A stretch of DNA of 64,000 bases from Tateyamaria sp. Alg231-49 (GTDB lineage Bacteria; Pseudomonadota; Alphaproteobacteria; Rhodobacterales; Rhodobacteraceae). Made by a program: the position numbers and the translations under genes. Of the stretch, positions 6,858 to 40,727 are shown piece after piece. The notes below the pieces were generated by a model. It saw nothing but the letters and a program-made list of their open reading frames with translations, was not told where the DNA came from and ran no database searches. The first letter of the stretch is position 1. Each line of letters opens with the position of its first letter. The stretch spans positions 124,001 to 188,000 of the forward strand of contig NZ_FRFA01000006.1 in assembly GCF_900143535.1 (NCBI RefSeq), in the 5' to 3' direction.

Positions 6858-6991
6858 GGCGATGCCTTTTGAGGGTGAGTGCAAGAATGTGGGGCTTTGG
6901 CCGCAAGCACAACCGGCAACATCATCAAAGTGGCACAAAGGGCGGAAATTCGGTGCCAGATGTTGGACTGGCGATCCCGTGGCATGGGGCC

Positions 6992-7447
6992 TCAGGTGGG
7001 TAGGGGGCCGTCCCGTTTGAGCTGATCCATGACGATTTGACTGTGCACGCGTGCGACCGAAGGGTGCGGCAGCAGGACGTCGTGTATCAACGCGTTTAGC
7101 GCCGCTAGATCCGCGCAGTAGACGCGCAGCAGATAGTCGGCGTCGCCCGTCATCGCCCATGCGCTTGTGATCTCGGGCGAGGTGTCCAGCAGGCGGGCAA
7201 AGCTGGCTGAGTGTTCCGGGCCGTGGGTGCCGAGGTGCACCTGAACAAAACCCTGCACACTGAGCCCAAGCCGCGCCGGATCAAGGCGCGCGACATAGCC
7301 TTGGATGTAGCCATCCGCTTCGAGCCGCTGACGGCGGCGTCCGATCTGACTGGCTGACAGGTTTAGCTTGTCGCTGAGGTGTTGTGCCGTGAGGTGCGCG
7401 TCTTGTTGAAGGGCAGCAAGCAGGCGGGTGTCGAGGGAATCTAGCAT
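6992..7447 (-). CDS. Lrp/AsnC family transcriptional regulator
   Basis: A 151-residue regulator. Residues ~1-50 are an AsnC-type winged helix-turn-helix (MLDSLDTRLLAALQQDA, then LSASQIGRRRQRLEADG), and ~65-140 form the RAM ligand-binding domain with MTGDADYLLRVYC. It is divergent from the 4-hydroxyphenylpyruvate dioxygenase gene across a 138-base spacer that holds an inverted repeat. Lrp-type proteins often control the gene next to them in response to an amino acid, so tyrosine or phenylalanine breakdown is a reasonable but unproven target. The antiporter gene follows 134 bases downstream on the same strand. Confidence 0.92.
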   Translation of the reverse strand: MLDSLDTRLLAALQQDAHLTAQHLSDKLNLSASQIGRRRQRLEADGYIQGYVARLDPARLGLSVQGFVQVHLGTHGPEHSASFARLLDTSPEITSAWAMTGDADYLLRVYCADLAALNALIHDVLLPHPSVARVHSQIVMDQLKRDGPLPT

Positions 7448-7489
7448 GTGCGGAATTCCTGCATAGAATTTTAATTATTTGCGTATGGT

Positions 7490-7527
7490 GCGCGTAAACT
7501 GTGAGAAAAACCATCACTTTTACGCGC
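7490..7527. promoter_or_regulatory. Inverted repeat, candidate Lrp operator
   Basis: GCGCGTAAA (7490-7498) is perfectly complementary to TTTACGCGC (7519-7527), centre to centre 29 bases. A third half-site-like AGCGTAAA lies at about 7554-7561, nearer the dioxygenase start. The position, between an Lrp-type regulator and its divergent neighbour and in an AT-rich spacer, fits an operator. Binding is inferred. Confidence 0.5.
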
Positions 7528-7585
7528 ATTTTGCGCGCGATGCGCTGTATTTCGAGCGTAAATCACCCTTACCAGGAGTTCCCCG

Positions 7586-8680
7586 ATGGGCCCTTTTCCC
7601 CACGACGCCCCGAAATCTGAGATCACCGAAGCCAACCCGATGGGCACGGACGGTTTTGAATTCGTCGAATTTGCCCATCCTGATCCAGAGGAACTGCGCG
7701 CGCTGTTCACGCGCATGGGGTATCAAAAGGTGGCCCGTCACCGGTCGAAACAGATCGAGTTGTGGCAGCAAGGCGATATCACATACGTTTTGAACGCCGA
7801 ACCAGACAGCTTTGGCGCGCGGTTTGTTGAAGAGCATGGACCCTGCGCGCCGTCCATGGGTTGGCGGATCGTTGATGCGCAGGCCGCTTTTGAGCGCGCG
7901 CTGTCATTGGGGGCTAAGCCCTATGAAAGCACGGACAAAGTTCTGGATGTGCCTGCCATCTACGGCATCGGCGGTAGTCTGATTTACTTTGTAGATCAGT
8001 ACTATGACACCTCACCCTACAATGATGAGTATGAGTGGCTGGAGCAGTCCAAACCGCGCGGTGTTGGTTTTTTCTACCTCGATCACCTGACGCACAATGT
8101 GCACAAGGGGAACATGGACACGTGGTTCCGATTTTACGGCGATCTGTTCAATTTCAAAGAAATCCGGTTTTTTGACATCGAGGGTAAGTTCACCGGACTG
8201 CTCAGCCGTGCGCTGACCTCGCCTTGCGGACGCATTCGTATCCCGATCAATGAGGATCGCGGCGAGACTGGGCAGATCGTGGCCTATCTCAAGAAGTACA
8301 AAGGCGAGGGCATTCAACACATCGCGGTCGGTTCGGATGACATCTATGACAGCACAGATGCGATTGCCGATAATGGGTTGAAGTTCATGCCCGGACCGCC
8401 GGACACTTACTATGATTTGAGCAAGACGCGCGTTGCGGGCCATGACGAGCCGCTGGAGCGGATGCGCAAGCATGGTATCCTGATCGATGGCGAAGGCGTC
8501 GTTGATGGGGGTGAAACCAAGATTCTTTTGCAGATCTTCTCAAAAACTGTGATTGGGCCGATCTTCTTTGAATTCATTCAGCGCAAAGGCGACGAAGGAT
8601 TTGGCGAAGGGAACTTTAAGGCTCTGTTTGAAAGCATCGAACAAGAACAGATCGACAGCGGAGAGCTGGCGGCTGGTTAA
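7586..8680 (+). CDS. hppD: 4-hydroxyphenylpyruvate dioxygenase
   Basis: A 364-residue Fe(II) dioxygenase converting 4-hydroxyphenylpyruvate to homogentisate in tyrosine degradation. It is built of two vicinal-oxygen-chelate halves. The iron ligands are His167 (LDHLTHNV), His245 (IQHIAVG) and Glu329 (FFEFIQR), close to the 161/240/322 spacing of the Pseudomonas enzyme. The motif QIFSKTVIGPIFFEFIQRKG is fully kept. The start at 7586 follows AGGAGTT with 7-base spacing. Other homogentisate pathway genes are not in this window. Confidence 0.96.
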   Translation: MGPFPHDAPKSEITEANPMGTDGFEFVEFAHPDPEELRALFTRMGYQKVARHRSKQIELWQQGDITYVLNAEPDSFGARFVEEHGPCAPSMGWRIVDAQAAFERALSLGAKPYESTDKVLDVPAIYGIGGSLIYFVDQYYDTSPYNDEYEWLEQSKPRGVGFFYLDHLTHNVHKGNMDTWFRFYGDLFNFKEIRFFDIEGKFTGLLSRALTSPCGRIRIPINEDRGETGQIVAYLKKYKGEGIQHIAVGSDDIYDSTDAIADNGLKFMPGPPDTYYDLSKTRVAGHDEPLERMRKHGILIDGEGVVDGGETKILLQIFSKTVIGPIFFEFIQRKGDEGFGEGNFKALFESIEQEQIDSGELAAG

Positions 8681-8710
8681 GGCGTCATTCCCAGAGATCA
8701 GAAAAGGAGG

Positions 8711-8731
8711 CGGAAACCGTGTTGGTTTCCG
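8711..8731. terminator. Hairpin between convergent hppD and 877-residue gene
   Basis: Perfect 8-bp stem CGGAAACC (8711-8718) / GGTTTCCG (8724-8731), loop GTGTT, directly against the stop codon of the minus-strand gene and 30 bases after hppD. The T-run is weak, so function as a shared terminator is inferred. Confidence 0.5.
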
Positions 8732-11365
8732 TTACCCTTTCGGCATCTTCAGCACCACGTTGCGACCGCTCTTTTGGTAGCGCAGTTCGGAATCGCCGAT
8801 CGCTGATATACGTCCGCCGTCAAAGCGGTCGCCCACTTCGACTTTTTGGTAGCGTCCATTGGCCAAGCGCACCAGCGCGCGCCGATTGGACGGCGTGCCG
8901 TAGACCCCAATCAGATTGACTCGGCGCAGGTTGATTGCGTTGCGCACGGTGGCCTCGCGCGTCACGGACGCCGAGGAAGGAATCTTGGGAGTAACGGTAC
9001 GAGGTGCAATGGAAACTGTGCGCTGTGGTTTCGGCGTTGCCTCTGCCTCTGCCTCGGGTGCTGGTGCAGGAGCAGGTGCTGGAGTGGCCCGCGCGACGGT
9101 GCGCGCGAAGTTACGCGGACGCGTTGCGGGGCGCAGGGACACAGCCGTCGCCAGTTCGGAAACGGGTGCGTTTTCTGCCGTTTCTTCTTGGTTCTGTTCT
9201 TCGATTTCTTGGGGCGCTTGCGGGCGCAGGCGAGGTCGCAAGGCGGCCAGTTCGGTGCGCGACAGCCCGCCAAGCGTGGCGCGTTCGTTCTGTTCGATCA
9301 AATCGGTTGGCCTTGCGCGTGGGCGAACTTGCACAATGGTCGTGGTGTTCGGGTTCGCATCTTCGCCGACCTCAAGCCGTGCGCGGGTGACTGGCGGAAC
9401 GATGGGTGGCCTGCCCAGATACACCGTGAACCCATCCGGGCTTAGCGCGCCTTCGACCGTGGGGATGATACGCCCTTGTGCGTCCCGGGCAAAGTTTGTG
9501 CCCGCTGCGGCGGGCGATGTAATCAGCGCCGGTCGTCGGTCGGTGTAAAAGGATGCCGAGCGCGGCAGGGCCACGGCGTCAAGCGCGGGGCTGACCGGGT
9601 CGATCCCGGTGACATAGAGGTCTTCGAGGTCCACAAGGCCCGTTGGGCTTGGAACATCCGGGGCTTTGGGCCAGATGCCGGTGACGGCATAGCGCGCGTC
9701 AAGGGCGGCTGCATCAAGCTCTTCGGGTGCCACTGGTTCAGGCAGGGGATCGCGCAATGCGTCCAGAACGGCGGCGTCCTCGGGGCTTAACCCGTCATCG
9801 GTGAGACTGTCGTTGAGCGCCGCGACGACAATGCCATCCGCTTCTGCTTCTGGGTCGGGTTCAAGAACGGTGGTGGCACCGACGTCTTCGACCAGCGCGG
9901 GGCTGGTGTCATCAGGCAAGGTGGACGCCAGCGTGCGTTCGCGCGGAGGAAACAGACGCGCCAGCCCATCGTCAAGAAAGATAGAGGCCCATGCCGCAAC
10001 ACCGGCCAGGAACACAATCAGCAGGGCCGTCAGGATCAGTCCCAGAAACCGTGGTTTGCCTCGCACCGTAACGTCACCACGGGCGCCGAACACAGTCATA
10101 CGCTCGGTTTCTATGGCCGGAGGCTCATGCGCCGGATTTTTGGCAGGCGCTGGAACGCGGGCTGTGGGTCGGTGCGCGTCGGCATCGGGCGCGACCGGCG
10201 CTTTGCGCCGTGAAAGGAACCCTCTGGGGCGCTCTTTTGCCGGCGCGACAAGGGGGGCAGGGCTTGTCTCGGTTGTCGCCACGACCGGTGGCTCGGTTGG
10301 GCGTAGGCTGTCTGCGGCAGATTTTGGCGGGGCCGTCAGGTTTACCTCGTCCTGATCGGGTGCCTCGGTCTGCGTCGGCGGCAGCGGTGATTTGGGGGGC
10401 ACTTTGGCACCGCGCAACACCCCGCCCAGACGCAGTGGAGGCGCATCAGAAGACGGATCTTGCCGACGTCTTGTGGCAAAGCCCAGCAGCGGTGGGGTGG
10501 TCTGTTCAGTATCGAGCGGAGTGTCGTCTGGGATGTCGATATCTTCGACGATCACGCCTGCATCCACGGCCAGTGTTTCTGCGACCACGGGATCCTTTGG
10601 CACAGCATCGGGCGTTGGGGCAGTGTCGGGCGTTGGCGCGTCGGCGATGCTTGGCGCTGTCTCTTCTGTTTGCTCGGGTGCTTCTGCTTCGGGCTCTGGT
10701 GCGTCCTGCGTCAGCATCGCAGGGCCATCCGCCTCGTCCTTGATCTGGTCAGGCTCTACCGGCTCTTGGGCTGGTTCTTCCACAACCGGGTCAACGATGG
10801 GCTGCTCTGGTTCTGCCAGTTTTTCTACGATGACCACACGCACGCCATCCGGTTCGACTTCGGTGCCGGGTGGGAGTGCGGTCTTGGCGTGGGAGGTCGG
10901 GCCAAAGAACGGCTCGCCTAGGAACTCCGCGCCGGTTCCGGCAGCCGCGAAGCTGACCGGGGCAAACCCGTGTTGGCGGGCAAAGTCTTCGGCCTCTTGC
11001 AGCGTTTCGCGGGCTACGGCGGCGATATGGGTTGTGTCTCCGTCCGGAGAAATGTCGAAGGCCAATGCATCGACCGCATAGGGGGTGGCGCCGTCAAGGG
11101 CGGCGCGCGCAGCGTCTTTGCGGGCAAGATCATCCTGCCCCGGCGTTTTGACGCTGAGATAGCGGATTTGTTCGTCCGGGATAATCAGCTTGGTATAGAG
11201 CGGGCCGCTGTCCGCGGCCTCGCCCGCGTTGCGCAGTGTTGCCAGCGCCCCTGCAAGGTCAGACTCCGAGATCGACACCTCGCCCAACAGGTACCACCCG
11301 CCCGCTGCGCGTTGCAGCAGGCGGATCCCGTCAAAGGACAAGGACATCGCAAAGTTCGGCTTCAT
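8732..11365 (-). CDS. Large single-pass protein with GspC/PilP-like C-terminal domain
   Basis: An 877-residue protein of unknown function. Residues 1-150 form a globular N-terminal part (MSLSFDGIRLLQRAAGGW, strands with IIPDEQIRYLSVKTPG) that reads like the actin-fold/GspL-PilM type of platform protein. Residues ~165-430 are Pro/Glu/Ala/Asp-rich and low in complexity. A single membrane helix lies at ~440-464 (LILTALLIVFLAGVAAWASI). A second Pro/Ala/Arg-rich linker leads to a compact C-terminal domain (~795-877; NLIGVYGTPSNRRALVRL and KVEVGDRFDGGRISAI) like the periplasmic homology region of GspC/PilP. Automatic pipelines often label relatives translation initiation factor 2, which nothing here supports. 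metY lies upstream on the same strand, 108 bases away. Confidence 0.7.
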   Translation of the reverse strand: MKPNFAMSLSFDGIRLLQRAAGGWYLLGEVSISESDLAGALATLRNAGEAADSGPLYTKLIIPDEQIRYLSVKTPGQDDLARKDAARAALDGATPYAVDALAFDISPDGDTTHIAAVARETLQEAEDFARQHGFAPVSFAAAGTGAEFLGEPFFGPTSHAKTALPPGTEVEPDGVRVVIVEKLAEPEQPIVDPVVEEPAQEPVEPDQIKDEADGPAMLTQDAPEPEAEAPEQTEETAPSIADAPTPDTAPTPDAVPKDPVVAETLAVDAGVIVEDIDIPDDTPLDTEQTTPPLLGFATRRRQDPSSDAPPLRLGGVLRGAKVPPKSPLPPTQTEAPDQDEVNLTAPPKSAADSLRPTEPPVVATTETSPAPLVAPAKERPRGFLSRRKAPVAPDADAHRPTARVPAPAKNPAHEPPAIETERMTVFGARGDVTVRGKPRFLGLILTALLIVFLAGVAAWASIFLDDGLARLFPPRERTLASTLPDDTSPALVEDVGATTVLEPDPEAEADGIVVAALNDSLTDDGLSPEDAAVLDALRDPLPEPVAPEELDAAALDARYAVTGIWPKAPDVPSPTGLVDLEDLYVTGIDPVSPALDAVALPRSASFYTDRRPALITSPAAAGTNFARDAQGRIIPTVEGALSPDGFTVYLGRPPIVPPVTRARLEVGEDANPNTTTIVQVRPRARPTDLIEQNERATLGGLSRTELAALRPRLRPQAPQEIEEQNQEETAENAPVSELATAVSLRPATRPRNFARTVARATPAPAPAPAPEAEAEATPKPQRTVSIAPRTVTPKIPSSASVTREATVRNAINLRRVNLIGVYGTPSNRRALVRLANGRYQKVEVGDRFDGGRISAIGDSELRYQKSGRNVVLKMPKG

Positions 11366-11473
11366 ACTAGGCCTTTAGCAAGTTGGGCGCGTGGATGGAA
11401 CGCACCTCTATATGCAACGTAGGATAAAGCAGGACTTTGCCCATGCAAAGTAAAAGCGGCGTGGGGACTGGTC

Positions 11474-12766
11474 CTAGCTTGCTGCCTTGGCCAGCGCCTG
11501 ATCCAAATCGGCGATAAGATCATCCACATCCTCGGTTCCGATGGAAACGCGCACCACTTCGGGCGCAGCCCCGGCCGCACGCTGCTGTTCGGCTGTGAGC
11601 TGGCGGTGCGTGGTTGAGGCGGAGTGGATGATGAGCGAGCGGGCATCGCCCAAGTTCGCCACGTGACTAAAGATTTCGAGCGCGTTGACCAGTTTAATGC
11701 ACGCATCGTACCCGCCCTTGACCGCAAAGGTGAACAAACCACCGGCCCCGCGCGGACAGATCTTGGCTACCCGTTTGTAATAGGGCGAGGATTCCAGGCC
11801 TGCGTAGGTCACGTATTCAACGCGTGGGTCGTTTTCGAGCCAGTTGGCGATCTTGACTGCGTTTTCGACATGCCGGTCCATACGCAATGACAAGGTTTCT
11901 GTGCCCATCAGCGTGTAGTGCGCGGCCTGTGGGTTCATTGTCATGCCCAGATCCCGCAAACCAATTGCGATCCCGTGGAAGGTGAAGGCGAGGGGGCCGA
12001 ACGTTTCGTGGAACTTGAGCCCATGATAGGCCTGTTCGGGTTGCGACAGCGCCGGGAATTTGTCGTTGGCTGACCAGTCAAACTTGCCGGAATCTACGAC
12101 GCAGCCTCCGGTGACTGTGCCGTTGCCGGTCAGGTATTTGGTTGTGGAATGCACAACCAGCGTCGCTCCGTGTTCGATGGGGCGGCACAGGTAGGGGGTG
12201 GCCGTTGTATTGTCTACGATCAGCGGAATTTCTGCACCGTCAGCAATTTCGGCAATCGCATCCAGATCGGTGATGTAGCCGCCCGGGTTGGCAATCGCTT
12301 CGCAGAACACGGCGCGGGTATTGTCATCGATGGCGGCCTTCACGGCGTCCAGATCGTCAAAGTCGACGAACGTTGCCTCCCATCCGAACCGTTTGATGGT
12401 GTGACTGAACTGGGTGACGGTGCCGCCATAGAGACGAGTGGAGACGACCACGTTTTTGCCCGGTGACATCAGCGGGTACAGCGCCATGATTTGCGCGGCG
12501 TGCCCTGATGAACAACATACTCCGCCTACACCTCCTTCGAGCGTCGCGATGCGTTCCTGCAGCACGGCGACGGTCGGGTTGGTCAGGCGGGAATAGATGT
12601 AGCCGACCTCTTGCAGGTTAAAGAGGGCAGCGGCGTGTTCTGCGTCACGAAACACATATGCCGTGGTTTGATAGATCGGTGTCTGGCGTGCACCCGTAGC
12701 GGGGTCAGGCCGTGCGCCTGCGTGAATTTGAAGGGTGTCAAAACCGTATTTCGGGCCGTCGGTCAT
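11474..12766 (-). CDS. metY: O-acetylhomoserine sulfhydrylase
   Basis: A 430-residue PLP enzyme of the Cys/Met metabolism family that forms homocysteine from O-acetylhomoserine and sulfide. The PLP lysine is Lys210 in VVHSTTKYLTGNGT. The N-terminal TLQIHAGARPDPATGARQ and YIYSRLTNPT motifs and the ~430-residue length favour MetY over the shorter cystathionine enzymes. The ribosome binding site AAAGGAA sits inside one arm of a perfect inverted repeat (12773-12822), which suggests translational control. Confidence 0.93.
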   Translation of the reverse strand: MTDGPKYGFDTLQIHAGARPDPATGARQTPIYQTTAYVFRDAEHAAALFNLQEVGYIYSRLTNPTVAVLQERIATLEGGVGGVCCSSGHAAQIMALYPLMSPGKNVVVSTRLYGGTVTQFSHTIKRFGWEATFVDFDDLDAVKAAIDDNTRAVFCEAIANPGGYITDLDAIAEIADGAEIPLIVDNTTATPYLCRPIEHGATLVVHSTTKYLTGNGTVTGGCVVDSGKFDWSANDKFPALSQPEQAYHGLKFHETFGPLAFTFHGIAIGLRDLGMTMNPQAAHYTLMGTETLSLRMDRHVENAVKIANWLENDPRVEYVTYAGLESSPYYKRVAKICPRGAGGLFTFAVKGGYDACIKLVNALEIFSHVANLGDARSLIIHSASTTHRQLTAEQQRAAGAAPEVVRVSIGTEDVDDLIADLDQALAKAAS

Positions 12767-12772
12767 TTTGAG

Positions 12773-12822
12773 GTTCCTTTGCCTTGAGGCGCTGTGGTTG
12801 CCTTATCGATAGGCAAAGGAAC
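12773..12822 (-). promoter_or_regulatory. metY: metY leader hairpin covering the ribosome binding site
   Basis: In the metY leader, GTTCCTTTGCCT (minus strand, 12822-12811) and AGGCAAAGGAAC (12784-12773) form a perfect 12-bp stem with a 26-base loop. The 3' arm contains the metY ribosome binding site, ending 6 bases before ATG at 12766. A competing short hairpin is possible, because TGCCT in the 5' arm can also pair with AGGCA in the loop (loop ATCGATA). Mutually exclusive stems of this kind are typical of riboswitch or attenuator platforms. No known SAM riboswitch consensus was recognised in the ~100 bases upstream. Confidence 0.55.
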
Positions 12823-12917
12823 GACTGCGGGCAAGACGATCCAGGTTTTTTAGGAACTTCGCAATCACGGCCTGACAGGGTTGGCCGCCCATTTGTCGTA
12901 GGAGCGCGTGACCGGGG

Positions 12918-13346
12918 TCAGGCGATCTTGGTCATGGAATAGCTGGCTGAAACTTCGGGAAACGCCTGTTCGATGTATTCAATCAATTCGATCTTGGGAG
13001 ACCGCGCCGCATCGTCATAACGCAGGACATAGTGCACTTGGCTTGTTTTCAGGCACGTTCCTTGCGCGTCCAGGTGATCCCATTCGACCCAAACGTTGCT
13101 GTATCCGTTGACAGGCAACCCATCGGCCAGAATGCGCGGCGTTATTTTGGTAATGCCGGCGTTAAGCGAGGCGTCGTGATACATTGTCAGCACTTCTTTG
13201 AAAGTGCACGGCGCACCAAAGACCTGCAGGGTGTCTCCGGCATAAAGTGGAATGGGGAAGACAAAGTTCTCAAGAACTGCGTCAATCCTTCCCTGCATTA
13301 AGTTTTCAACTATGCCGCTCAGGAATAAACAAGTCGCATCTGACAT
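12918..13346 (-). CDS. Hypothetical protein, possible NTF2/SnoaL-like fold
   Basis: A 142-residue soluble protein with no signal peptide. The order of predicted elements (an N-terminal helix with a central FPIPLYAG strand, a FKEVLTMYHDAS helix, then long strands VNGYSNVWVEWDHL and LKTSQVHYVLRYDD ending in a helix) resembles NTF2-like folds, but no catalytic motif was identified. The start at 13346 follows GAAGGGAGC on the minus strand. An upstream in-frame ATG at 13412 is less likely because it has no such site. It is 151 bases upstream of metY on the same strand. Confidence 0.6.
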   Translation of the reverse strand: MSDATCLFLSGIVENLMQGRIDAVLENFVFPIPLYAGDTLQVFGAPCTFKEVLTMYHDASLNAGITKITPRILADGLPVNGYSNVWVEWDHLDAQGTCLKTSQVHYVLRYDDAARSPKIELIEYIEQAFPEVSASYSMTKIA

Positions 13347-13463
13347 GTGCCTGCTCCCTTCGCTTGAAACTTGGCAAGTTGGGTGACGGTTATTCGGATG
13401 CGTCCAGTACATGGATGTACATCCGTTTTTTAGGGTGAGTGGCTGTTAATATAGCGCAAGAAG

Positions 13464-14474
13464 CTAGCGCATCCAGAAACCGTTGGATTTTATTCGATTT
13501 CGGATTGCCTGTTCCTTGCGGGGCAGGTCGTTTTGGTCAAAAAGTGCGCGCACTTTTTCGCCGCGCCCCTGAAAGACCATGCGCTTGATTGGGTCGTATC
13601 CTTTGAGGACCTTTTTGATCTTGTTTGGGCTGCACACGGCGTGAAGGGTGTCTATGACGGCCTGATTTTCCCGGGCATAAAGCATTGGGAGCAGGCGGTA
13701 GTGGCAACTCACCGGCCCGTCGAGATGTGCATGCACCGCGCTGTCGCGACCACCGCCCAAGGCGTGGATCACAAGGGGCAGGGCCACTTGGTCAAGCCAC
13801 GGATCCAATGACTGGCACACAAGTTCCGGTGGTGGAGTGTCACGAATGTGCAAAGTGTATGCGAGGAATTTTTCCCCGAACGCATGCGGGCATGATCCGA
13901 AAAAGTAGCCTGCGTTGAAGTAGAGATAGCGTTTCCAGTACTCGTCAGGCTCGTTCAGATCGAGGCTGCTTTCAAAGTCGAGATCAAACGCATCATAGAG
14001 CGACTTCCAGATGTCAGTGTAGCCGGGCCCGTAGAGTTCCAGTTGCGGCCATGTGTCGGTGCGCCGCATCGATGCGCTGGGATAGTCAAAGTCGAAGAGC
14101 ACGTCGTTGAGTTCACCCGTGATTAGGGTGTCACTGTCGAAAAACACAAACGGCTCGCCTTTGGGCAATGCCTGCAGCATCTCGATCTTGTTTCCGGGCG
14201 GGTAAGTATGGCCGAAATGCTTGGATTCAAAGGGGACTATTTCGGCGCCTAGATCAGCGAGGGCCGCCCGGACATCCCCGTTTCCGATCCGCGGATCTTT
14301 GGGCCATAGAGGGCCGGGCTGGGGTTCTGCGATCAGCACGCGGCCTTTGAAATTGGGGCTTTTGGCGCGCAGCGAGGCAACAAACAACAGGGCTTCGTAC
14401 TCCAGCCGCCCGGACTGCCCCACAAGGGCGATGTTAAAGAGTTGTTCCGCCTTTTTTGCGGGTTTGCGTGCCAT
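13464..14474 (-). CDS. Glycosyltransferase-like protein with DxD motif
   Basis: A 336-residue cytoplasmic protein. Its N-terminal half shows a GT-A-like pattern: LFNIALVGQSGRLEYEALLF, then a strand ending in FVFFDSDTLITGELN, where Asp113-x-Asp115 is the type of metal/nucleotide-sugar motif seen in GT8 and related families. Later YLYFNAGYFFGSC and LDPWLDQVALPL also fit such enzymes. Substrate unknown. The start at 14474 (MARKPAKKAEQLF) is preferred over 14507 because conservation should begin at the Rossmann-like strand. It stands alone between the 142-residue gene and the membrane redox cluster. Confidence 0.6.
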   Translation of the reverse strand: MARKPAKKAEQLFNIALVGQSGRLEYEALLFVASLRAKSPNFKGRVLIAEPQPGPLWPKDPRIGNGDVRAALADLGAEIVPFESKHFGHTYPPGNKIEMLQALPKGEPFVFFDSDTLITGELNDVLFDFDYPSASMRRTDTWPQLELYGPGYTDIWKSLYDAFDLDFESSLDLNEPDEYWKRYLYFNAGYFFGSCPHAFGEKFLAYTLHIRDTPPPELVCQSLDPWLDQVALPLVIHALGGGRDSAVHAHLDGPVSCHYRLLPMLYARENQAVIDTLHAVCSPNKIKKVLKGYDPIKRMVFQGRGEKVRALFDQNDLPRKEQAIRNRIKSNGFWMR

Positions 14475-14544
14475 TGTGCCTGCTTTGCATCTTTTTCCTT
14501 GGTACAACTATAGAAGGAAAATGGGTGCGATAAAGCATTGATCG

Positions 14545-14808
14545 TCACTCTGGCGGTGGGTTCAGCCGATCATAGAGTTTTTGCAAGACTGTAAGGATCA
14601 AAAACACACCAATTGCCCACATCAGCAGTTCGAATGGAGCAAAGTCCGTGCCGCGCACCCATTGACCCAAGAGGCTGCCTTGGGGGCGCAATTCTTCGAT
14701 CCCGAACAGACCGCTGCGCGGCCAGAGCGAGAGGGTCCAGAAGCGTGACAGATAAAACAAGATAGCTGCGACCAAAGCGACGACGACCAGCCAGACGATC
14801 CGCTTCAT
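14545..14808 (-). CDS. Small two-helix membrane protein of the Rieske cluster
   Basis: An 87-residue protein with an N-terminal membrane helix (IVWLVVVALVAAILFYLSRF) and a second one (FELLMWAIGVFLILTVLQ). Its ATG overlaps the stop codon of the preceding gene by 4 bases, so it is translated with it. It is the last gene of a four-gene set. No family was recognised; a structural role in a membrane complex is inferred from the context. Confidence 0.7.
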   Translation of the reverse strand: MKRIVWLVVVALVAAILFYLSRFWTLSLWPRSGLFGIEELRPQGSLLGQWVRGTDFAPFELLMWAIGVFLILTVLQKLYDRLNPPPE

Positions 14809-15575
14809 GGCGTCACCTCAATTGTGTCGACGTCAATTTCCCAGACCAGAAGGTCACCGCGTTTGGTGATCTCGCCCTCAGCTGTGATGAATTGGGCCAC
14901 GTGATCGTAGGCGGCGCGGGGCAGGCGGGTGCCATCAGGGCCGGTAACCAGAAGGAATTCTTCGCCCAGCACTGGCTGCGAAGAGACAAAGATGGGTGGC
15001 ACATCGCCCAGCAGGCACAGGTTGGCGCAGGCCTTGTGGGCAAGGCCGCGACCGGGGCGCATGGCGCCTGCGAGGCATTTGCCATCGCAAATCTCGCCCG
15101 TCAGTTGCCAGCGTCCATGAGGTTCGGCCGTCACCTGGGGTGCATCGCCTTCGGCCGCCTTCAAACCGTTGCGCCCGCCGCGCAGTTGCAACATGTAAAG
15201 GTCCCCACGTTCCAGCACGATGCCGGACACTTCGACCAATTGGCCGCTGAGCGGCATGGCGCGGCTGTCGACGCCGGATTTGCCCGCCGCCGTCATCAGG
15301 AAACTGTCGCCCGGTTTGATCCTGTCATTTCCTTCGGTCACATGGATCACCGGATAGGGGGTCATTTCCACGACGCCGGTCACGGTCTGTCGGCCATAAT
15401 CGAAACGGAACGCACCGGGGCCGGGGTCGTCCTGAGCGGTGCCCATGAAGTAGCCCGCCGCCGCCAAACCGCCCACGACAGCAAGGCAAACAGACAGCAA
15501 AAACACGCGCAGCGGGCCGGGCACGGGCAGATAGCCGACGAAGAAGGGACCACCTTTCTCAGAGTCGTCGCTCAT
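14805..15575 (-). CDS. Membrane-anchored protein with Cys/His motif, OB-like strands
   Basis: A 256-residue protein with one N-terminal membrane helix (residues ~22-45) and the rest outside the cytoplasm. It alternates short beta segments (TVTGVVEMTPYPVIHV, LVEVSGIVLERGDLYML, AEGEITKRGDLLVWEI), suggesting OB-like or all-beta modules. Between them sits a metal- or disulfide-type motif: Cys163, Cys167, His180, Cys183 and Cys187 (GEICDGKC ... AHKACANLC). It overlaps genes on both sides by 4 bases. Its partner upstream carries a Rieske centre, so a role in electron transfer or cofactor holding is a fair inference; the function is unknown. Confidence 0.6.
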   Translation of the reverse strand: MSDDSEKGGPFFVGYLPVPGPLRVFLLSVCLAVVGGLAAAGYFMGTAQDDPGPGAFRFDYGRQTVTGVVEMTPYPVIHVTEGNDRIKPGDSFLMTAAGKSGVDSRAMPLSGQLVEVSGIVLERGDLYMLQLRGGRNGLKAAEGDAPQVTAEPHGRWQLTGEICDGKCLAGAMRPGRGLAHKACANLCLLGDVPPIFVSSQPVLGEEFLLVTGPDGTRLPRAAYDHVAQFITAEGEITKRGDLLVWEIDVDTIEVTP

Positions 15576-16636
15576 GCCGGTTCTCCTTGGGGCAGTTGGA
15601 TTTCAGGCAGTGGTAGCGGATCGACATACGTGCCAGGAGGATTGGCATCCGGGTGCACCTCGACCATCCCGTTTTCTAGGCGCAATCGGTAGGTCGGCAC
15701 CTTTTCGGTGAAGGGCGCAGGCGAGCGGCCAGAGCGCACATCGTATTGAAACCCATGCCAAGGGCAGGTGACGAGGCAATCGATCACGCGTCCTTCTCCC
15801 AGCGGGCCATTTTGGTGGGCGCAGGCGTTGGAGATGGCCGACAGTTGTCCTTCCATCAGGTAGACCGCCACGCGATCCCCGTTGGGCAGGCGGGTGATTT
15901 TTGCGAACCCTTCCTTGAAGTCATCCGGCATGGCCACTTCGATCCATGCCCCATCCTTGTCCCCGGCGTCACTGCTCTCGAACCACCACGCGGCGAGATG
16001 CAACACGATGACCGCTCCGGCTCCGCCGATAAACAGTACCGTAAAGATGTGGTTTTGCTGGTCTTGCAGAATGCCAAGGCTGATGTGCGCCGCAACCGAA
16101 AAATAGGCAGCATAGATCAGGTAGTGGAGGCGTTTCCATACAGGTGGTGTCAGGAATTTGAGCCAGAAGTCATGGCTGGTGGTGGCAAGGATCAACAAGC
16201 AGAACAGCGCAAATATCCCAAAGACTTCAAAGGGAAAGCCAGCGATCTGCCCAAAGCTTGCATTCGCATAAAGGAGGCCAACATACTTGTCCGCACTGGA
16301 AAAGGCGAAGTACCAGTTCAGGATATAACCGGCATGTGTAAGGGCCACGAAGGCGGTCATGACGCCGAAATGGCGGCGGTTGTAGAGCAATGGCAGGAAC
16401 CGCTTGTCCAACCGTGCGGCAGGGCCAATACAAAGGATGATCGTGAGCATCACAAAGGCGCAGGCCCCAAAGGCGCGAGCGTTGTGGATCTGTGGGTTGA
16501 TGGCCCGTTCATGGGACAACACCTGCGGCGTGACATAGAGAAAGATCCACAGAAATGCGGCCACGCCGGCCAGCATCACGCCGTCATAAATCCATTTGTT
16601 TCGATTCCACTGAACGGGAGTGTATTTGACGCTCAT
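15572..16636 (-). CDS. Fusion of ferric-reductase-type membrane domain and Rieske [2Fe-2S] domain
   Basis: A 354-residue protein. Residues ~15-220 contain six to seven membrane helices with histidines suited to haem binding (His89 in RRHFG, His101 in LTHAGY, His171 in LHYLIYAAY, His184 in VAAHIS), the pattern of ferric reductase/MsrQ-like domains. Residues ~230-330 form a Rieske domain with the ligands Cys272-x-His274 (CAHQNGPLG) and Cys291-x2-His294 (CPWHGFQYD). No FAD/NAD(P)H domain is attached, so electrons probably pass between the Rieske centre and membrane haems. The gene overlaps its neighbours by 4 bases on both sides, forming one operon. Confidence 0.8.
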   Translation of the reverse strand: MSVKYTPVQWNRNKWIYDGVMLAGVAAFLWIFLYVTPQVLSHERAINPQIHNARAFGACAFVMLTIILCIGPAARLDKRFLPLLYNRRHFGVMTAFVALTHAGYILNWYFAFSSADKYVGLLYANASFGQIAGFPFEVFGIFALFCLLILATTSHDFWLKFLTPPVWKRLHYLIYAAYFSVAAHISLGILQDQQNHIFTVLFIGGAGAVIVLHLAAWWFESSDAGDKDGAWIEVAMPDDFKEGFAKITRLPNGDRVAVYLMEGQLSAISNACAHQNGPLGEGRVIDCLVTCPWHGFQYDVRSGRSPAPFTEKVPTYRLRLENGMVEVHPDANPPGTYVDPLPLPEIQLPQGEPA

Positions 16637-17004
16637 TGATCAACTCCAATGCTCAGTTGCACAGGCACAGCGTCTGCGGGCCAAGTCTGGCGCACCGAAA
16701 GCCCCATCGCGACAACAACAATGATCCCGACGCTCATGGCGATGACCGCGGCACCGTACCATCCGCGGACAGCTTGGTAACGGGCGGCCCATGGGGCGGT
16801 CTCGGCCTCGATCTGCCACCAGCGCCACAGCACAAGGGGCCAGATCAACATGACCCCGGGGATCAGCAGAGGGCGGAAAACGTAGGCGCCGCGCGCGTCT
16901 TCGTCGATGCGGTCCATGCCGATGGTCAGAAACACGGCTGCAACAATCGCGCCGATGATGCCCCATGTTTGCATCCCCATAACGAGGGCCTGTGCAATAT
17001 CCAT
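16633..17004 (-). CDS. Small membrane protein, first gene of the Rieske cluster
   Basis: A 123-residue protein with three hydrophobic segments (WGIIGAIVAAVFLTIG, LIPGVMLIWPLVLWRWW and AAVIAMSVGIIVVVAMGL). It begins the four-gene operon and its stop overlaps the start of the Rieske fusion gene. The start at 17004 (MDIAQALVMGMQ) is chosen because the extra upstream residues in the open frame are not protein-like. No family recognised beyond general similarity to small cytochrome-associated membrane subunits. Confidence 0.65.
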   Translation of the reverse strand: MDIAQALVMGMQTWGIIGAIVAAVFLTIGMDRIDEDARGAYVFRPLLIPGVMLIWPLVLWRWWQIEAETAPWAARYQAVRGWYGAAVIAMSVGIIVVVAMGLSVRQTWPADAVPVQLSIGVDQ

Positions 17005-36533: not shown

Positions 36534-36674
36534 GGACTGAGCGGCTGTTTACGGACCAGCATAAGCGTGTGATCGCGCCCAGTGGCCGTGTTCTGAGAAC
36601 AACCCAAAACGCGATGACATAAGTGGAATCCGACGATGCGCTAAAGCGTTGTTCCGGGCGGCACCTGTCCGTGC
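36534..36674. other. Left boundary of the phage-like island
   Basis: The 141 bases after the mannitol dehydrogenase stop hold no gene, terminator, or copy of the tRNA-Tyr 3' end. The change from metabolic to phage-like content happens within this stretch. Confidence 0.4.
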
Positions 36675-36932
36675 ATGTGCGCCACAGTTCCACCATGTAA
36701 TGCTAAACATGACCGTCGACGATGCGCGCATATTGCGGCTCTCGTTCCGTTTACTGGAGTAAAGGCGCAGCAACGTCTGGACGACAACGCCGACAGTCTT
36801 GAGGCAACGGGCCAGCTAGCGCTGTTGACCAGCAAGCTGCCGCAGGTCGGTTTCAAGACCAACCACCCGGACGTGCGCCCGATCCGGAACAAATACAACA
36901 ACCTCATGAACTCCGTAAGGAAGCAGCGATGA
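36675..36932 (+). CDS. Phage-like fragment, possibly 5'-truncated
   Basis: An 85-residue frame whose second half (ADSLEATGQLALLTSKLPQV, then NKYNNLMNSVRKQR) looks like real protein, while the first ~28 residues (Cys/Arg-rich) do not. It overlaps the start of the next gene by 4 bases (ATGA), as in a natural operon. I read it as the C-terminal remnant of a longer gene whose front was lost at the island edge. No family recognised. Confidence 0.4.
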   Translation: MCATVPPCNAKHDRRRCAHIAALVPFTGVKAQQRLDDNADSLEATGQLALLTSKLPQVGFKTNHPDVRPIRNKYNNLMNSVRKQR

Positions 36933-37168
36933 ACGCACAAAATCCCTTTGTGAAGCAGGCACCCGCCAAGCCCAAGCGGTCCGGAGTGTCCCAGAAAGAT
37001 ATGCAGACGATTGCCAAGGTGATCGCCAACAACGTCACCGAAAACGTGCGTCCACTGCATGAATGGATCAAGAAACTGGAACAGGCATTGGCGTACGCAC
37101 AAGCCGAAGCCGAAAAGCAACTCGGCGATGCCGCTGGTTCCTTCATCAGCCGCCGCAAAGGAGACTAA
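36929..37168 (+). CDS. Small coiled-coil protein upstream of capsid gene
   Basis: A 79-residue protein, mostly helical after residue 20 (KDMQTIAKVIANNVTENVRP then EWIKKLEQALAYAQAEAEKQ), suitable for a coiled coil. It ends two bases before the capsid start codon and contains the capsid ribosome binding site AAAGGAG in its last codons. Its position suggests a head-assembly helper, but no family was recognised. Confidence 0.6.
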   Translation: MNAQNPFVKQAPAKPKRSGVSQKDMQTIAKVIANNVTENVRPLHEWIKKLEQALAYAQAEAEKQLGDAAGSFISRRKGD

Positions 37169-37169
37169 C

Positions 37170-38567
37170 ATGTACAAGAACGGATCGCGGACACGGGACG
37201 AACAGGAACAGGACCGCTTTAACAAGACGGTGAGAGGAAGCCAGAGCGCCTTGATCTGGGATGCGGGCCACAAGGCCATTCAAGACGGCTTAAACCTTGA
37301 ACCCACTGTGGTTGAACAGGGTAAAGAGATCGCTGCACTCAAGAAGGAAATCGGTGCTCTCAAACGTCCACTAAATGTGATGTTGAAGCAGCCCGAAGAA
37401 CCCAAGGGTGGCACCAAACTTGGCACCGAAACCGATGTCTCTATGGCAGCATTCACGGCCGAGTTCCTGCGATACGCAAGCAAGGGTAAGATTTCGCACG
37501 ACGATGTTTTGAACGTAGTTTATCCAAAGGACGAAGGGCGTTTCCAACGTAAAGCAGCAAGACGCCAGATCGTTAAGAGCGCCACAAGTGAACACATGAC
37601 TACGGATGCCAACCTTGGTGCAACGCTTGTTGCAAGTGCAAGGGGGCTTTGGATTGACGAATTGGTGTCGAAAAGCGTGTTTGCGGCTATCATGTCACGC
37701 GGTGGTCGTCGGCTGCCGATGGACGGTGTGAACAGCCTCACCTATCCAAAACGGTCGGCACTTGGCATTGGTGATATGTCGCAGTCCTTCGTAGGCGAAG
37801 GTGCCACGATCCCAGTAAAGGACACCACACTCGCTTCAATGACATTCACCCGCAAGAAGATGGCGGTGATCACGGTGGCAACAAACGAGTTGCTTAAAGT
37901 GGCTATTGAAGACCTACACGCCTTGTTCTTGGAAATGATTACCGACGACACCGCCATGATGTTGGATGGTTATATCCTCGGCGAAGGCAACGGCAGCGTT
38001 ACAAATGTCCGCCCACCGTCGCCTTGGTTGAACGCACCAAGCACACCGAGTGTGGGCACCGATCTGGCCTCGATCATCACCGATATCTCCTATTTGTTGG
38101 GTGTCATTGATCGTCCAGCCAAACCGCTGCTGTTGATCGACACTGCACGTGAAGCACGTCTCCGGTCGTGGCGTGACAATGACGGGTGGGTCTTCAAGGA
38201 AGAAATGGCGCAAGGTACGATCTTGGGTACGCCTTACGTATCCAGCGTCAACGTGCCGACAGACCGCATTTACGTGATCGACGCCAACGACTTCGCGGCA
38301 TGGTTGCCCGCACCAGAGGTCGATATGTCCGCGTCGGCTACAGTGGTTATGACCGACGACGACGGCACCTCGCCGACAATGGCTGATACCAATGCCGTGT
38401 CCGTAGCAGGCTCCATCAAGGTCAGTGACGCGGCTGGTACCGTACCACCCGCCGAGGTGCATTCGGTATTCCAGATGGATAGCACCGCCATGCGCGTCGT
38501 GCAGCCCATCGAATTTGGCATGATGCGGGAAGACCGCACGGCACTGGTCACGGGGGTAACTTGGTGA
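37170..38567 (+). CDS. HK97-fold phage major capsid protein
   Basis: A 465-residue protein recognised as an HK97-type major capsid protein. Residues ~1-110 are helical and charged with a heptad-like stretch (VVEQGKEIAALKKEIGALKR, ~47-66), the place of the scaffolding delta domain. The fold itself follows: an N-arm, then FVGEGATIPVKDTT, MTFTRKKMAVITVATNELL, MLDGYILGEGNGS, and a C-terminal P-domain ending VQPIEFGMMREDRTALVTG. A Thr/Ala/Val-rich insertion (~385-430) near the end may be a surface loop. ATG 37170 follows AAAGGAG. The usual partners (terminase, portal, protease, tail genes) are absent here. Confidence 0.88.
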   Translation: MYKNGSRTRDEQEQDRFNKTVRGSQSALIWDAGHKAIQDGLNLEPTVVEQGKEIAALKKEIGALKRPLNVMLKQPEEPKGGTKLGTETDVSMAAFTAEFLRYASKGKISHDDVLNVVYPKDEGRFQRKAARRQIVKSATSEHMTTDANLGATLVASARGLWIDELVSKSVFAAIMSRGGRRLPMDGVNSLTYPKRSALGIGDMSQSFVGEGATIPVKDTTLASMTFTRKKMAVITVATNELLKVAIEDLHALFLEMITDDTAMMLDGYILGEGNGSVTNVRPPSPWLNAPSTPSVGTDLASIITDISYLLGVIDRPAKPLLLIDTAREARLRSWRDNDGWVFKEEMAQGTILGTPYVSSVNVPTDRIYVIDANDFAAWLPAPEVDMSASATVVMTDDDGTSPTMADTNAVSVAGSIKVSDAAGTVPPAEVHSVFQMDSTAMRVVQPIEFGMMREDRTALVTGVTW

Positions 38568-38779
38568 TGAAGCAGATCGGCGTCACCCACAGCCGCGACG
38601 GCATGGTCACGGTCACCAACGGCACCCTTGTGGTTGCACAGTTGCCCGACAGCACCGACCTCAACAGCACCTTGCGGAACTTAAATCTTGACCCTCGCCA
38701 GGTGGTGACGATCCAGCACGCCAACGGTGTTGACCGTAAACATACGATAGCCGAATTGGGGGTGAACCATGCCTTTTGA
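38567..38779 (+). CDS. Small protein coupled to the capsid gene
   Basis: A 70-residue protein whose ATG overlaps the capsid stop codon (TGATG at 38565-38569). It alternates beta-like segments (MVTVTNGTLVVAQL, RQVVTIQHANGV), which would suit a head decoration or connector protein. No family recognised; reality is supported by the coupled start. Confidence 0.6.
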   Translation: MKQIGVTHSRDGMVTVTNGTLVVAQLPDSTDLNSTLRNLNLDPRQVVTIQHANGVDRKHTIAELGVNHAF

Positions 38780-38921
38780 TATAGAACCTGAGGACAACCG
38801 CCCAGACCGGCCCACCGATCCCTTGATGATCGCAATTGCCGCAGCGTTGGGCCACTGGCCGACCGAGGACGAAATCACAGAATTAGAGCGGGCTTTGCGG
38901 CGGGAATTAGCGGATGAATAA
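38769..38921 (+). CDS. Very small acidic protein in the capsid operon
   Basis: A 50-residue protein starting at ATG 38769, 11 bases inside the previous gene, and ending TAA 38919-38921. It reads MPFDIEPEDNRPDRPTDPL, then a helix ending in ELERALRRELADE. It overlaps the next start by 8 bases. The chain of overlaps supports it as real; function unknown. Confidence 0.5.
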   Translation: MPFDIEPEDNRPDRPTDPLMIAIAAALGHWPTEDEITELERALRRELADE

Positions 38922-39153
38922 TGCGCAGTATCTTAACCTTGTTGCTGAGAGTGGTCTTGCGGTGTGTCGGTTGCGTCCTGAAGTCTGTGAACAGATGTTG
39001 ATCGAAACCTGCCGTATGCTGTTGGACGTATTGTGGGAGGGGAAGGAATATCCGCCGGACAGCCTGTTGCTTTCACAGTGCGCCGACTATGATATTCTAA
39101 ACCCGCAGCAGCTTGTGGTCGCGATGAAACAACTGCCCCGCTTCGTTAACTGA
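38914..39153 (+). CDS. Small Cys-containing protein, end of the capsid operon
   Basis: A 79-residue helical protein with four cysteines (AVCRLRPEVCEQMLIETCRM, and SQCADYDIL later). It starts within the last codons of the preceding gene, preceded by a weak GCGGGAATTAG site. No family recognised. After it the operon-like chain ends. Confidence 0.5.
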   Translation: MNNAQYLNLVAESGLAVCRLRPEVCEQMLIETCRMLLDVLWEGKEYPPDSLLLSQCADYDILNPQQLVVAMKQLPRFVN

Positions 39154-39488
39154 AACCCATGCCGGTTTTGAATTCGCTTGATGAGCCAAAGCGGACGTTG
39201 ATGTCGACTGCAGCGAATGACTGCTCTGAGCCCAAATCGTTCAATGTGATGAGCGCGGAAAACATACGGTTCACCGATTGGACCAAGCCGCTTGCGTCGG
39301 GGCTCGCATCTGAAGTAACCTAATTCGATGGCTGCATGTATGTGATGATACGAAACCTGTGACTGGTTGTTAGCAATGCAAAGGCATCAAGCTATTTCAA
39401 CGATGCGGGGGTAGAGGTGGCACCACCAATTGGCATTTTCACTTTTACAACTTAAACTCTGAGTATTTTTGAACGCGGACAAATTATT
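39154..39488. other. Gap between capsid operon and orphan gene
   Basis: 335 bases without a supported gene. The right-hand third becomes AT-rich (39430-39488) and probably holds the promoter of the next gene. The short string TGCAGCGAATG occurs here (about 39209) and again near 40376, flanking the orphan gene. Confidence 0.4.
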
Positions 39489-40274
39489 ATGCCCACTACC
39501 GAAAAAACAAATGACATAAAGATCATAAATCGAATTCAAAAATCCAATTGGGAAAAACTTAAGAAACATATCAAGCGCGCGTCGGCGAATATAAAGCCGG
39601 AAGCGGACTTAGGGACTATGTATGCTGGGAATTTTGTTGGCTGGGACATAATTCGCGACGTGGAAAAAATCCTGCCAGCAGGGGAGATGAACGACCTCAA
39701 CTTGCAACCACTTTATAAAGTTATCCAGCAGGCAAATAGACGGGAGATAAGAAGTACTGGTAAGTTGCGATTTGACACGATTGTCGATGTGCTTGAGGAC
39801 ATGCGTGCACCGGTGCTCATCTGCCCTGACTATCGTGAGAAGGTTAAATTCCGGCATCTCGCAGAATGTGCGTTTCAGGCAGGTAAGGTAGTTCCTGTAG
39901 GTACTAATAAGAAAGCTAGCGAAAACGGCGGCTTGAATGGACTTTTACCAACCAAACATGCGCGAATTTTGTGGGACTTTCTGTCGACAATCTACGTCGG
40001 CAATGCAGAGGGCGAAATCAAGATTTTGGAGGGTGTGTCTGATGATCATACGAAACTTGGCAGAGACAAAGTTATGATCCGGACAGAGCTGGAAAAGGCT
40101 CTGAAAAATTCCAAGCTGGATGAAAAAACCTTGCAAAAACTTCGATACATGGTCGAAAAATATGCAGATGCCTTAAGCAAGAAAACCGATCCTGCTACTA
40201 GGCGGCTCGAACAACTTCTGGTTTCAATGAAGAAACATGCAAAGCCGATTAAACGAGCGCCAAAGAGTTACTAG
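39489..40274 (+). CDS. Orphan protein of unknown function, AT-richer than neighbours
   Basis: A 261-residue Lys-rich soluble protein, helical for most of its length (NRIQKSNWEKLKKHIKRASA; KTLQKLRYMVEKYADALSKK). Its codons use A and T at third positions far more than the surrounding genes, a sign of recent arrival. No clear ribosome binding site precedes the ATG. No family, catalytic motif or membrane segment was recognised. The place beside a lone capsid gene and a tRNA suggests an accessory (for example defence or lysogenic conversion) gene, but this is only inference. Confidence 0.6.
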   Translation: MPTTEKTNDIKIINRIQKSNWEKLKKHIKRASANIKPEADLGTMYAGNFVGWDIIRDVEKILPAGEMNDLNLQPLYKVIQQANRREIRSTGKLRFDTIVDVLEDMRAPVLICPDYREKVKFRHLAECAFQAGKVVPVGTNKKASENGGLNGLLPTKHARILWDFLSTIYVGNAEGEIKILEGVSDDHTKLGRDKVMIRTELEKALKNSKLDEKTLQKLRYMVEKYADALSKKTDPATRRLEQLLVSMKKHAKPIKRAPKSY

Positions 40275-40643
40275 CGGACACTCCCAATTTGAATGTCTCC
40301 TCTGGGCGAACTACGGACGTTATTCAAGATTTACGGACGACGGAAAAGTCCGCAAGGCTGTCGTTCAGACTGCGTGCAGCGAATGTCGGCTAAGCCCGTT
40401 GACCGTAGTCGATCAATTTGACCAGTGAAGGTTCACAGATGTCGGGCTGTGCCACAGGCAACAAGTAGGAAAAACAATTGCGCCCAGATGATCGGCTAAC
40501 GCACATTGACCACCGAACAGGGCAACTTCGCACGAGCGTTTAAGCAAGGTTATGCTTCCCGCCGGTGTGTGGCCTGATCTAAGTCTTAGTGTGGGGTAAA
40601 GTGGTGCGTTCTACCCGTAACCCATTGAAGCGTAAGGTGTAAA
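40275..40643. other. Gap between orphan gene and tRNA-Tyr
   Basis: 369 bases without a supported gene; no integrase or recognisable integrase remnant. If the island entered at the tRNA, the attachment core should lie at the right end of this stretch, but no second copy of the tRNA end was found at the left end. Confidence 0.4.
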
Positions 40644-40727
40644 TGGTGGGCGACCCTGGAATCGAACCAGGCGTGCGTCTCCGCGAGGGAGTTACAGTCC
40701 CCTGCCACACCTTGCGGCCTGTCGCCC
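40644..40727 (-). tRNA. tRNA-Tyr (anticodon GTA)
   Basis: Reads on the minus strand. Acceptor arms GGGCGAC (5', 40727-40721) and GTCGCCC (3', 40654-40648), discriminator A at 40647 and CCA encoded at 40646-40644. Anticodon stem GGGGA/TCCCT encloses CTGTAAC, giving GTA. T-stem CCTGG/CCAGG encloses TTCGATT, and there is a long variable arm as in class II tRNAs such as tRNA-Tyr. Its 3' end faces the capsid island. Confidence 0.96.

Follow-up and report, generated by a model that had tools for sequence, protein, structure and literature searches.

A lone HK97-type capsid gene beside tRNA-Tyr in Tateyamaria sp. Alg231-49, probable remnant of a phage satellite

The capsid gene, its upstream neighbours and the rest of the block

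The DNA analysed here is a stretch of 64,000 nucleotides from Tateyamaria sp. Alg231-49 (Rhodobacteraceae; assembly GCF_900143535.1, contig NZ_FRFA01000006.1, positions 124,001 to 188,000), hereafter the window, in which a phage capsid gene lies in a 4-kb block delimited by the end of the preceding open reading frame (ORF) at 36533 and by a tRNA-Tyr gene on the minus strand (40644-40727). The only recognisable phage gene between these boundaries is the plus-strand ORF 37170-38567, which codes for an intact HK97-type major capsid protein (MCP) of 465 residues. The protein matches the Phage_capsid family PF05065 (E 3e-8, above the cut-off) and the major head proteins of PHROG 617 (E 8e-19) and PHROG 10 (E 1e-16). 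A Shine-Dalgarno-like AAGGAG at 37158-37163 (plus strand) precedes its ATG at 37170. None of the eight other ORFs of the block matches a phage structural, packaging or integrase family of Pfam or PHROG at E up to 1, and hidden Markov models (HMMs) of the large terminase subunit (TerL), portal and protease found nothing in the whole window at 1e-3. A preliminary description, made from the sequence alone, had reported a lone full-length capsid gene with an intact frame and a good ribosome binding site, set against the 3' end of tRNA-Tyr in a block devoid of terminase, portal, protease, tail and integrase genes. All of this was borne out.

The MCP gene is single-copy in the genome at E 0.001. Its product retains all 23 residues that are invariant among the 13 other MCPs of its family (see next section) and 47 of the 51 positions conserved at 80%, and its score of 488 bits falls within the family range of 418-550. 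Nei-Gojobori dN/dS ratios of five other MCP pairs lie between 0.10 and 0.45. The comparison of the window gene with its relative at locus L173 is saturated (dS 3.4), so dN/dS is uninformative for the window gene itself. From these sequences the MCP family looks to be under constraint. Single-sequence searches with the window MCP returned nothing from IMG/VR, GTDB contigs or phages, five weak matches from plasmids and no convincing match among solved structures, and queries built from alignments were therefore needed. The 14-row MCP profile matches the capsid proteins 9d9w (E 1.8e-8) and 6b0x (E 8e-6). Its three solved-structure hits (E up to 0.1) are all named phage capsid or head proteins and include no encapsulin, the family with which a comparison had been proposed.

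Two further genes tie the block to other elements. Gene B (36929-37168, plus strand, 79 residues) lies directly upstream of the MCP gene and its product, which carries 'NPF' near the amino terminus, is coiled-coil-like by inspection. An HMM of gene B from nine other elements finds the window copy (E 3.2e-9) as its sole match in 1230 six-frame segments. The scaffold family PF06810 matches gene B of L175 and L154 weakly, below the cut-off, and does not match that of the window. Upstream of gene B, the plus-strand stretch 36766-36932 holds the carboxyl-terminal ~55 codons of gene A, a gene of ~180-200 residues in other elements whose amino-terminal two-thirds, approximately, are gone here. The gene A HMM (eight other elements) matches the window at +36645-36929 (E 9.2e-12), again as the sole match in 1230 six-frame segments, and the fragment matches L059 in blastp (E 8e-5). 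The alignment is clear only in the carboxyl-terminal part, from near 36765, where clear homology starts near 'KAQQRLDD'. The left breakpoint is probably near this position. The junction DNA (36534-36765) that separates the breakpoint from the preceding ORF recurs in the genome only as weak matches of 17-27 bp, and no integration or replication gene was found left of gene A. Judged from these alignments, the window copy is most likely a broken remnant from which everything left of the gene A fragment is missing.

The MCP gene is embedded in a tight run (36675-39153) of short ORFs, which often overlap. A small plus-strand ORF of 72 codons (38561-38779) overlaps the MCP stop and occupies, by position only, the place of small genes in other elements; a profile test gave no match. 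The next (38769-38921, plus strand, 50 codons) shares by eye an 'MPFD' start with small ORFs of L059 and L174 and has no significant match to other elements. The third (38914-39153, plus strand, 79 codons) closes the run and is without relatives in the searches. Neither a profile of the gene that follows the MCP gene in seven elements nor a gene D profile matches the window. The run is taken to end at 39175-39244, a stretch resembling ~11 short sequences dispersed over the genome. Beyond it lies an orphan plus-strand ORF of low GC content (39489-40274, 261 codons), which has no match in any family or relative search made and could be cargo or a separate insertion.

Relatives of the capsid protein and the elements that carry them

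Apart from the host's own genome, the window MCP was found in none of 60 relatives and in none of 19 congeners. Two others among 394 genomes of the family matched it, one of them a full phage. Among 390 genomes of the order, seven others matched a seven-row profile, including a full phage (genome G611) and a protein outside the clade described below (G637). GTDB contigs yielded five real relatives, from Rhodobacteraceae bacterium Alg231_30, uncultured Shimia (two), Pelagimonas varians and Phaeobacter marinintestinus, the last three taxa being placed in Rhodobacterales by NCBI, together with one additional weak match from Selenomonadaceae. IMG/VR gave 464 MCP relatives, of which 80 were kept. 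In total, close MCP relatives lie at 13 other loci (L154-L157, L059, L063 and L173-L179), 12 of them in Rhodobacterales. In a tree of 92 rows, the 14 MCPs form one clade with support of 100/100, apart from 75 MCPs of phage contigs, and no row of this clade comes from a contig bearing terminase or portal genes. The window MCP is sister to that of L173 (100/99; 47% identity), with L174 and L154 next. The MCPs of L056 (Sinorhizobium), L181 and L057 were set apart as they fall outside the clade, and L060 and L180, from the same searches, are full phages. Since L056, L181 and L057 fall elsewhere in the tree, the lone or near-lone state of an MCP may have evolved repeatedly, a reading of the tree that calls for caution because the branches of L056 and L181 are long.

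All other clade loci except L063 (12 of 13) sit within larger elements. An integrase gene is present in 11 of these 12, recognised by PF00589 in L059, L154 and L155 and by homology in the others; none was recognised in L176. Nine carry a primase/helicase, identified by family in L059, L154-L157 and L173 and by homology in L174, L175 and L178. L176 is tied to a Toprim protein through BLAST clustering only, while L177 and L179 have a large ORF without identified family at the place of the primase. Seven elements of 12.3-14.4 kb are delimited by flanking direct repeats of 16-49 bp: L154 (13.5 kb, at the 3' end of an rpsD-like gene by inspection), L155 (12.3 kb, tRNA-Met), L156 (13.6 kb), L059 (14.4 kb), L173 (14.3 kb, tRNA-Cys), L176 (13.3 kb, tRNA-Thr) and L179 (13.5 kb, tRNA-Cys). 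In letter-shuffled versions of L154, L155, L156, L059 and L173, the longest repeats arising by chance measured 12-16 bp. No convincing long flanking repeat was found in L157, L174, L175, L177 or L178: the 18-bp match of L175 occurs in three copies, the 14-bp matches at tRNA ends of L178 and L174 are within the chance range, and L157 and L177, like L063, have no repeat above 15 bp. Among the matches listed for 134 further ORFs of these relatives (see next section), HTH_17 occurs in four and AlpA in one. The L154 element carries, inside its flanking repeats, a Shedu SduA-like defence gene (11624-12895; PADLOC E 2.8e-163). Defence cargo such as Shedu is common in satellites.

Several features of individual loci are recorded here. 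Genome G544 harbours three lone-MCP elements (L177, L178 and L179), two of which have MCPs that are 97% identical. On the reverse strand of L176, ORFs of 486 and 614 residues resemble each other (E 2e-5), the larger having no family match. L063 is broken near the same place as the window copy, its gene B starting 20 bp from what remains of the carboxyl-terminal part of another capsid gene (PF05065 E 3e-23). At this junction (9224-9762 of L063), the capsid-gene fragment stands at the end of a cluster that by inspection resembles a gene transfer agent (GTA), on the strand opposite to the lone-MCP module that runs from gene B onward. On a Sinorhizobium megaplasmid, L056 holds a 10.8-kb element (6026-16870) at tRNA-Lys, flanked by a 49-bp repeat. 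Its lone MCP belongs to another lineage and is accompanied by Toprim and AAA_25 genes and by an ORF of the integrase cluster.

The 3' end of the window tRNA-Tyr faces the remnant and is a candidate attachment site. DNA similarity with 20 relative loci starts at ~40630-40644, the tRNA 3' end, and continues through rlmB, while two dehydrogenase-like ORFs left of the block are matched by none of the 20, two of which (L037 and L045) reach little leftward. Note that the names of the flanking host genes were given by inspection, without family search. A tRNA gene lies at the MCP-downstream end, as in the window, in L155, L173, L176, L179 and L178 (the latter with the 14-bp match only). Between the left part of the window locus and its right end there is no match of 11 bp or longer, the tRNA 3' end has no second copy and matches over at most 10 bp, and the integrase cluster has no member at 33-44 kb of the window. 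Attachment at tRNA-Tyr is thus unproven, and its placement is suggestive only, because L174 has its tRNA at the end opposite to the MCP-downstream one. The possibility, raised earlier, that relatives hold a full prophage at this site was checked in part: in 19 relatives, the 6 kb to the left of the tRNA-Tyr 3' end (2.6 kb in L037) contain nothing homologous to six satellite integrases, a result that leaves room for other prophages. The lengths and directions of the ORFs beside the tRNA 3' end vary among these 19 loci.

Packaging, tail and helper functions

The HMMs used for packaging genes were built from IMG/VR contigs (TerL 49 rows, portal 62, protease 19) and applied at a cut-off of 1e-3. 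TerL, portal and protease were detected in none of the 14 clade loci, whereas the control phage loci L058, L060 and L180 all score for the three proteins. Outside the clade, L057 scores for protease only, and L056 and L181 for none of the three. By comparison, TerL and/or portal cluster members occur in 78 of the 80 loci kept from IMG/VR, the exceptions being L063 and a 4.9-kb fragment. The 134 further ORFs of at least 85 residues, taken from the 12 larger elements, were then compared to PHROG and Pfam. ORFs already identified were excluded, as were three large ORFs of L177 and L179, which show no primase or integrase homology, and for L157, L174, L175 and L177 the element ends used were guesses. 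The matches listed (25 of 48 for PHROG, 25 of 28 for Pfam) include no TerL, portal, protease or tail family. A small-terminase (TerS) family was found in two of the ORFs, below the Pfam cut-off in both and with a PHROG E of 1.5e-9 in one. The screen also shows HNH and SieB families and one weak scaffold match, which is gene B of L175.

A tape-measure protein (TMP) of 535-596 residues is encoded downstream of the MCP gene in six of the 14 loci (L173, L174, L175, L177, L178 and L179), that of L173 at 14029-15819. It is identified by family in L173, L175 and L178, with PHROG E values of 1e-23 to 4e-25 (best) and 3e-17, and by PF09718 in L178 (E 5e-9). In L174, L177 and L179 it is identified by homology. 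Among the matches listed, no tail family other than the TMP was recognised in these six elements. In L063 the TMP profile finds the GTA-like tail gene (E 5e-25), its only match among the other clade loci, and it hits phage loci too, best L112 (E 1e-49).

The comparison with GTAs proposed in the preliminary description gave a negative result for the host, as GTA_TIM (PF13547) has no match in the window genome. It is present in all eight other genomes tested, namely six clade genomes (as a fragment only in G584), G611 and G637. The PF04860 portal, the only portal family searched at genome level, occurs in seven of nine genomes and is lacking in the window genome and in G584. The lack of both families, unlike in most MCP-bearing relatives tested, may reflect loss of a GTA from the window genome. 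The idea of a GTA as the obligate helper of the elements was rejected: G584 harbours two of them with no more than a piece of GTA_TIM and without a PF04860 portal, and the window host lacks both families.

Origin of the block and its meaning for Rhodobacterales satellites

Phage-inducible chromosomal islands of Gram-negative bacteria (GN-PICIs) offer the closest framework. As the cited passages describe them, they are organised in zones for integrase and AlpA, Bro, replication and late functions, often with an MCP, which is found in 21 of 29 reference PICIs and is dispensable for helper-assisted transfer; the 11capE PICI is inserted in the helper capsid gene and yet has its own MCP (PMC10111431). 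The likeness of the clade elements to GN-PICIs, including helper-embedded PICIs (HE-PICIs), lies in an integrase, AlpA/HTH_17 regulators, a primase/DUF5906, a size of 10-20 kb and a late zone with MCP, as far as that source sets them out (PMC10111431). Measured by these traits, the relatives have an integrase (11 of 12) and a replication gene (9 of 12), and seven are bounded by repeats at 12.3-14.4 kb. The window block has a late zone with MCP and lacks integrase/AlpA, a replication zone and a length of 10-20 kb with attachment (att) sites. The clade elements differ from GN-PICIs in their Rhodobacterales hosts, in an MCP clade of their own accompanied by genes A and B, in the TMP of six of the 14 loci and in the variable place and direction of the integrase, and the window copy in being a late part only.

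The block is, with high probability, the right-hand 'late' part of an integrated satellite of GN-PICI type whose left part was lost. The missing genes would be the integrase, a helix-turn-helix (HTH)/AlpA-type regulator, the primase/helicase and most of gene A, which may have gone in one deletion, leaving an immobile relic that retains gene B, the MCP and the short ORFs that follow. The integrase of the larger relatives presumably directs insertion of the element at the 3' end of a tRNA or other gene. On arrival of a helper phage, the element would excise and replicate by its own primase/helicase, the helper terminase and portal would package the satellite DNA, and the helper shell protein would give way to, or co-assemble with, the MCP of the satellite, aided by gene B. 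Of the capsid-carrying satellite proposed earlier, the satellite origin is favoured by the relatives in satellite-like elements, while the truncation of gene A makes the window copy a broken remnant of one.

A number of observations weigh against this assignment. The satellite origin rests on the homology of the MCP and of genes A and B, because the block yielded neither an att repeat nor an integrase or replication gene, and its small downstream ORFs have no significant relatives in the elements of the MCP family. Some relatives also fit imperfectly: no integrase was recognised in L176, the large ORF of L177 and L179 stands in place of a primase, and the GN-PICI layout as described is followed neither by the integrases of L154 and L156, which face outward, nor by those of L173, L175 and L179, which lie at the other end. 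P4-type immunity RNA was not found in seven loci (gathering threshold) or in the block. The relatives, none with a known helper, are presumed to be mobile, and an intact MCP is slightly unexpected in a dead relic.

The three other explanations are improbable to different degrees. A tailed phage that decayed down to its capsid region, the strongest of them and nevertheless unlikely, is compatible with the truncated left end and with the occurrence of more distant MCP relatives in normal phages. This origin is disfavoured by the 14-member MCP clade without any TerL- or portal-bearing row and by the recurrence of genes A and B upstream of the MCP in the nearest relatives, elements without detected packaging genes. 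It is considerably less probable that the capsid was exapted for a host purpose, such as a compartment or a phage-interference factor. The intact frame, the ribosome binding site and the full set of family-invariant residues would suit such a role, for which no positive support emerged: none of the 19 congeners carries the gene, and the three solved structures hit by the family profile are named as phage capsid or head proteins, none as encapsulin. A minimal satellite still mobile through an integrase acting in trans, to which the intact gene B and MCP and the adjacent tRNA 3' end might point, is the least credible of all, given the truncated gene A, the flanking repeat and replication gene that were not found, and a genome without PF04860 portal or GTA_TIM.

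Satellites of other types resemble the elements of the MCP clade only in part. Capsid-forming PICIs share with them a satellite-encoded capsid protein and, according to the cited passages, encode MCP, protease, portal, connectors and TerL/TerS (PMC10690885). The clade differs in having no detected TerL, portal or protease in its 14 loci and TerS-like matches in two ORFs, both below the Pfam cut-off. Phage-inducible chromosomal minimalist islands (PICMIs), P4-like satellites and PICI-like elements (PLEs) are small helper-dependent islands, as the clade elements would be. In the passages cited, PICMIs are marine and said to be devoid of capsid-remodelling and identifiable packaging genes, and an MCP is not described for P4-like satellites and PLEs (PMC10803314, PMC11389934). 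With the GTAs of Rhodobacterales there is likeness in the co-occurrence of GTA_TIM in the six other clade genomes tested and in the match of the satellite TMP profile to the GTA-like tail gene of L063, and difference in the window genome being without GTA_TIM. Lone MCPs have already been reported for Gram-negative PICIs. As far as the searches reach, what is new is the Rhodobacterales clade and, in six of its 14 loci, a TMP as the only recognised tail gene, and literature searches aimed at Rhodobacterales satellites gave no paper on such elements among the matches listed.

A bolder idea, held tentatively and rather doubted, is that a lineage of satellites in Rhodobacterales brings only the 'ruler' proteins of the virion, namely a shell protein of its own together with gene B, plus a TMP in six cases, while helper phages supply terminase, portal, protease and the rest. 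If so, the satellite itself would set the head size and tail length of the particle, and the window would hold a fossil of a ruler-protein lineage in a genome without detectable GTA_TIM or PF04860 portal. The odd lone capsid gene finds its place within a coherent lineage of satellite-like elements in Rhodobacterales. It also cautions against taking an uninterrupted capsid gene as proof of a working prophage. It raises the question of why such elements would keep one shell protein, and sometimes one TMP, when the MCP of GN-PICIs is, in the account cited, dispensable for transfer (PMC10111431).

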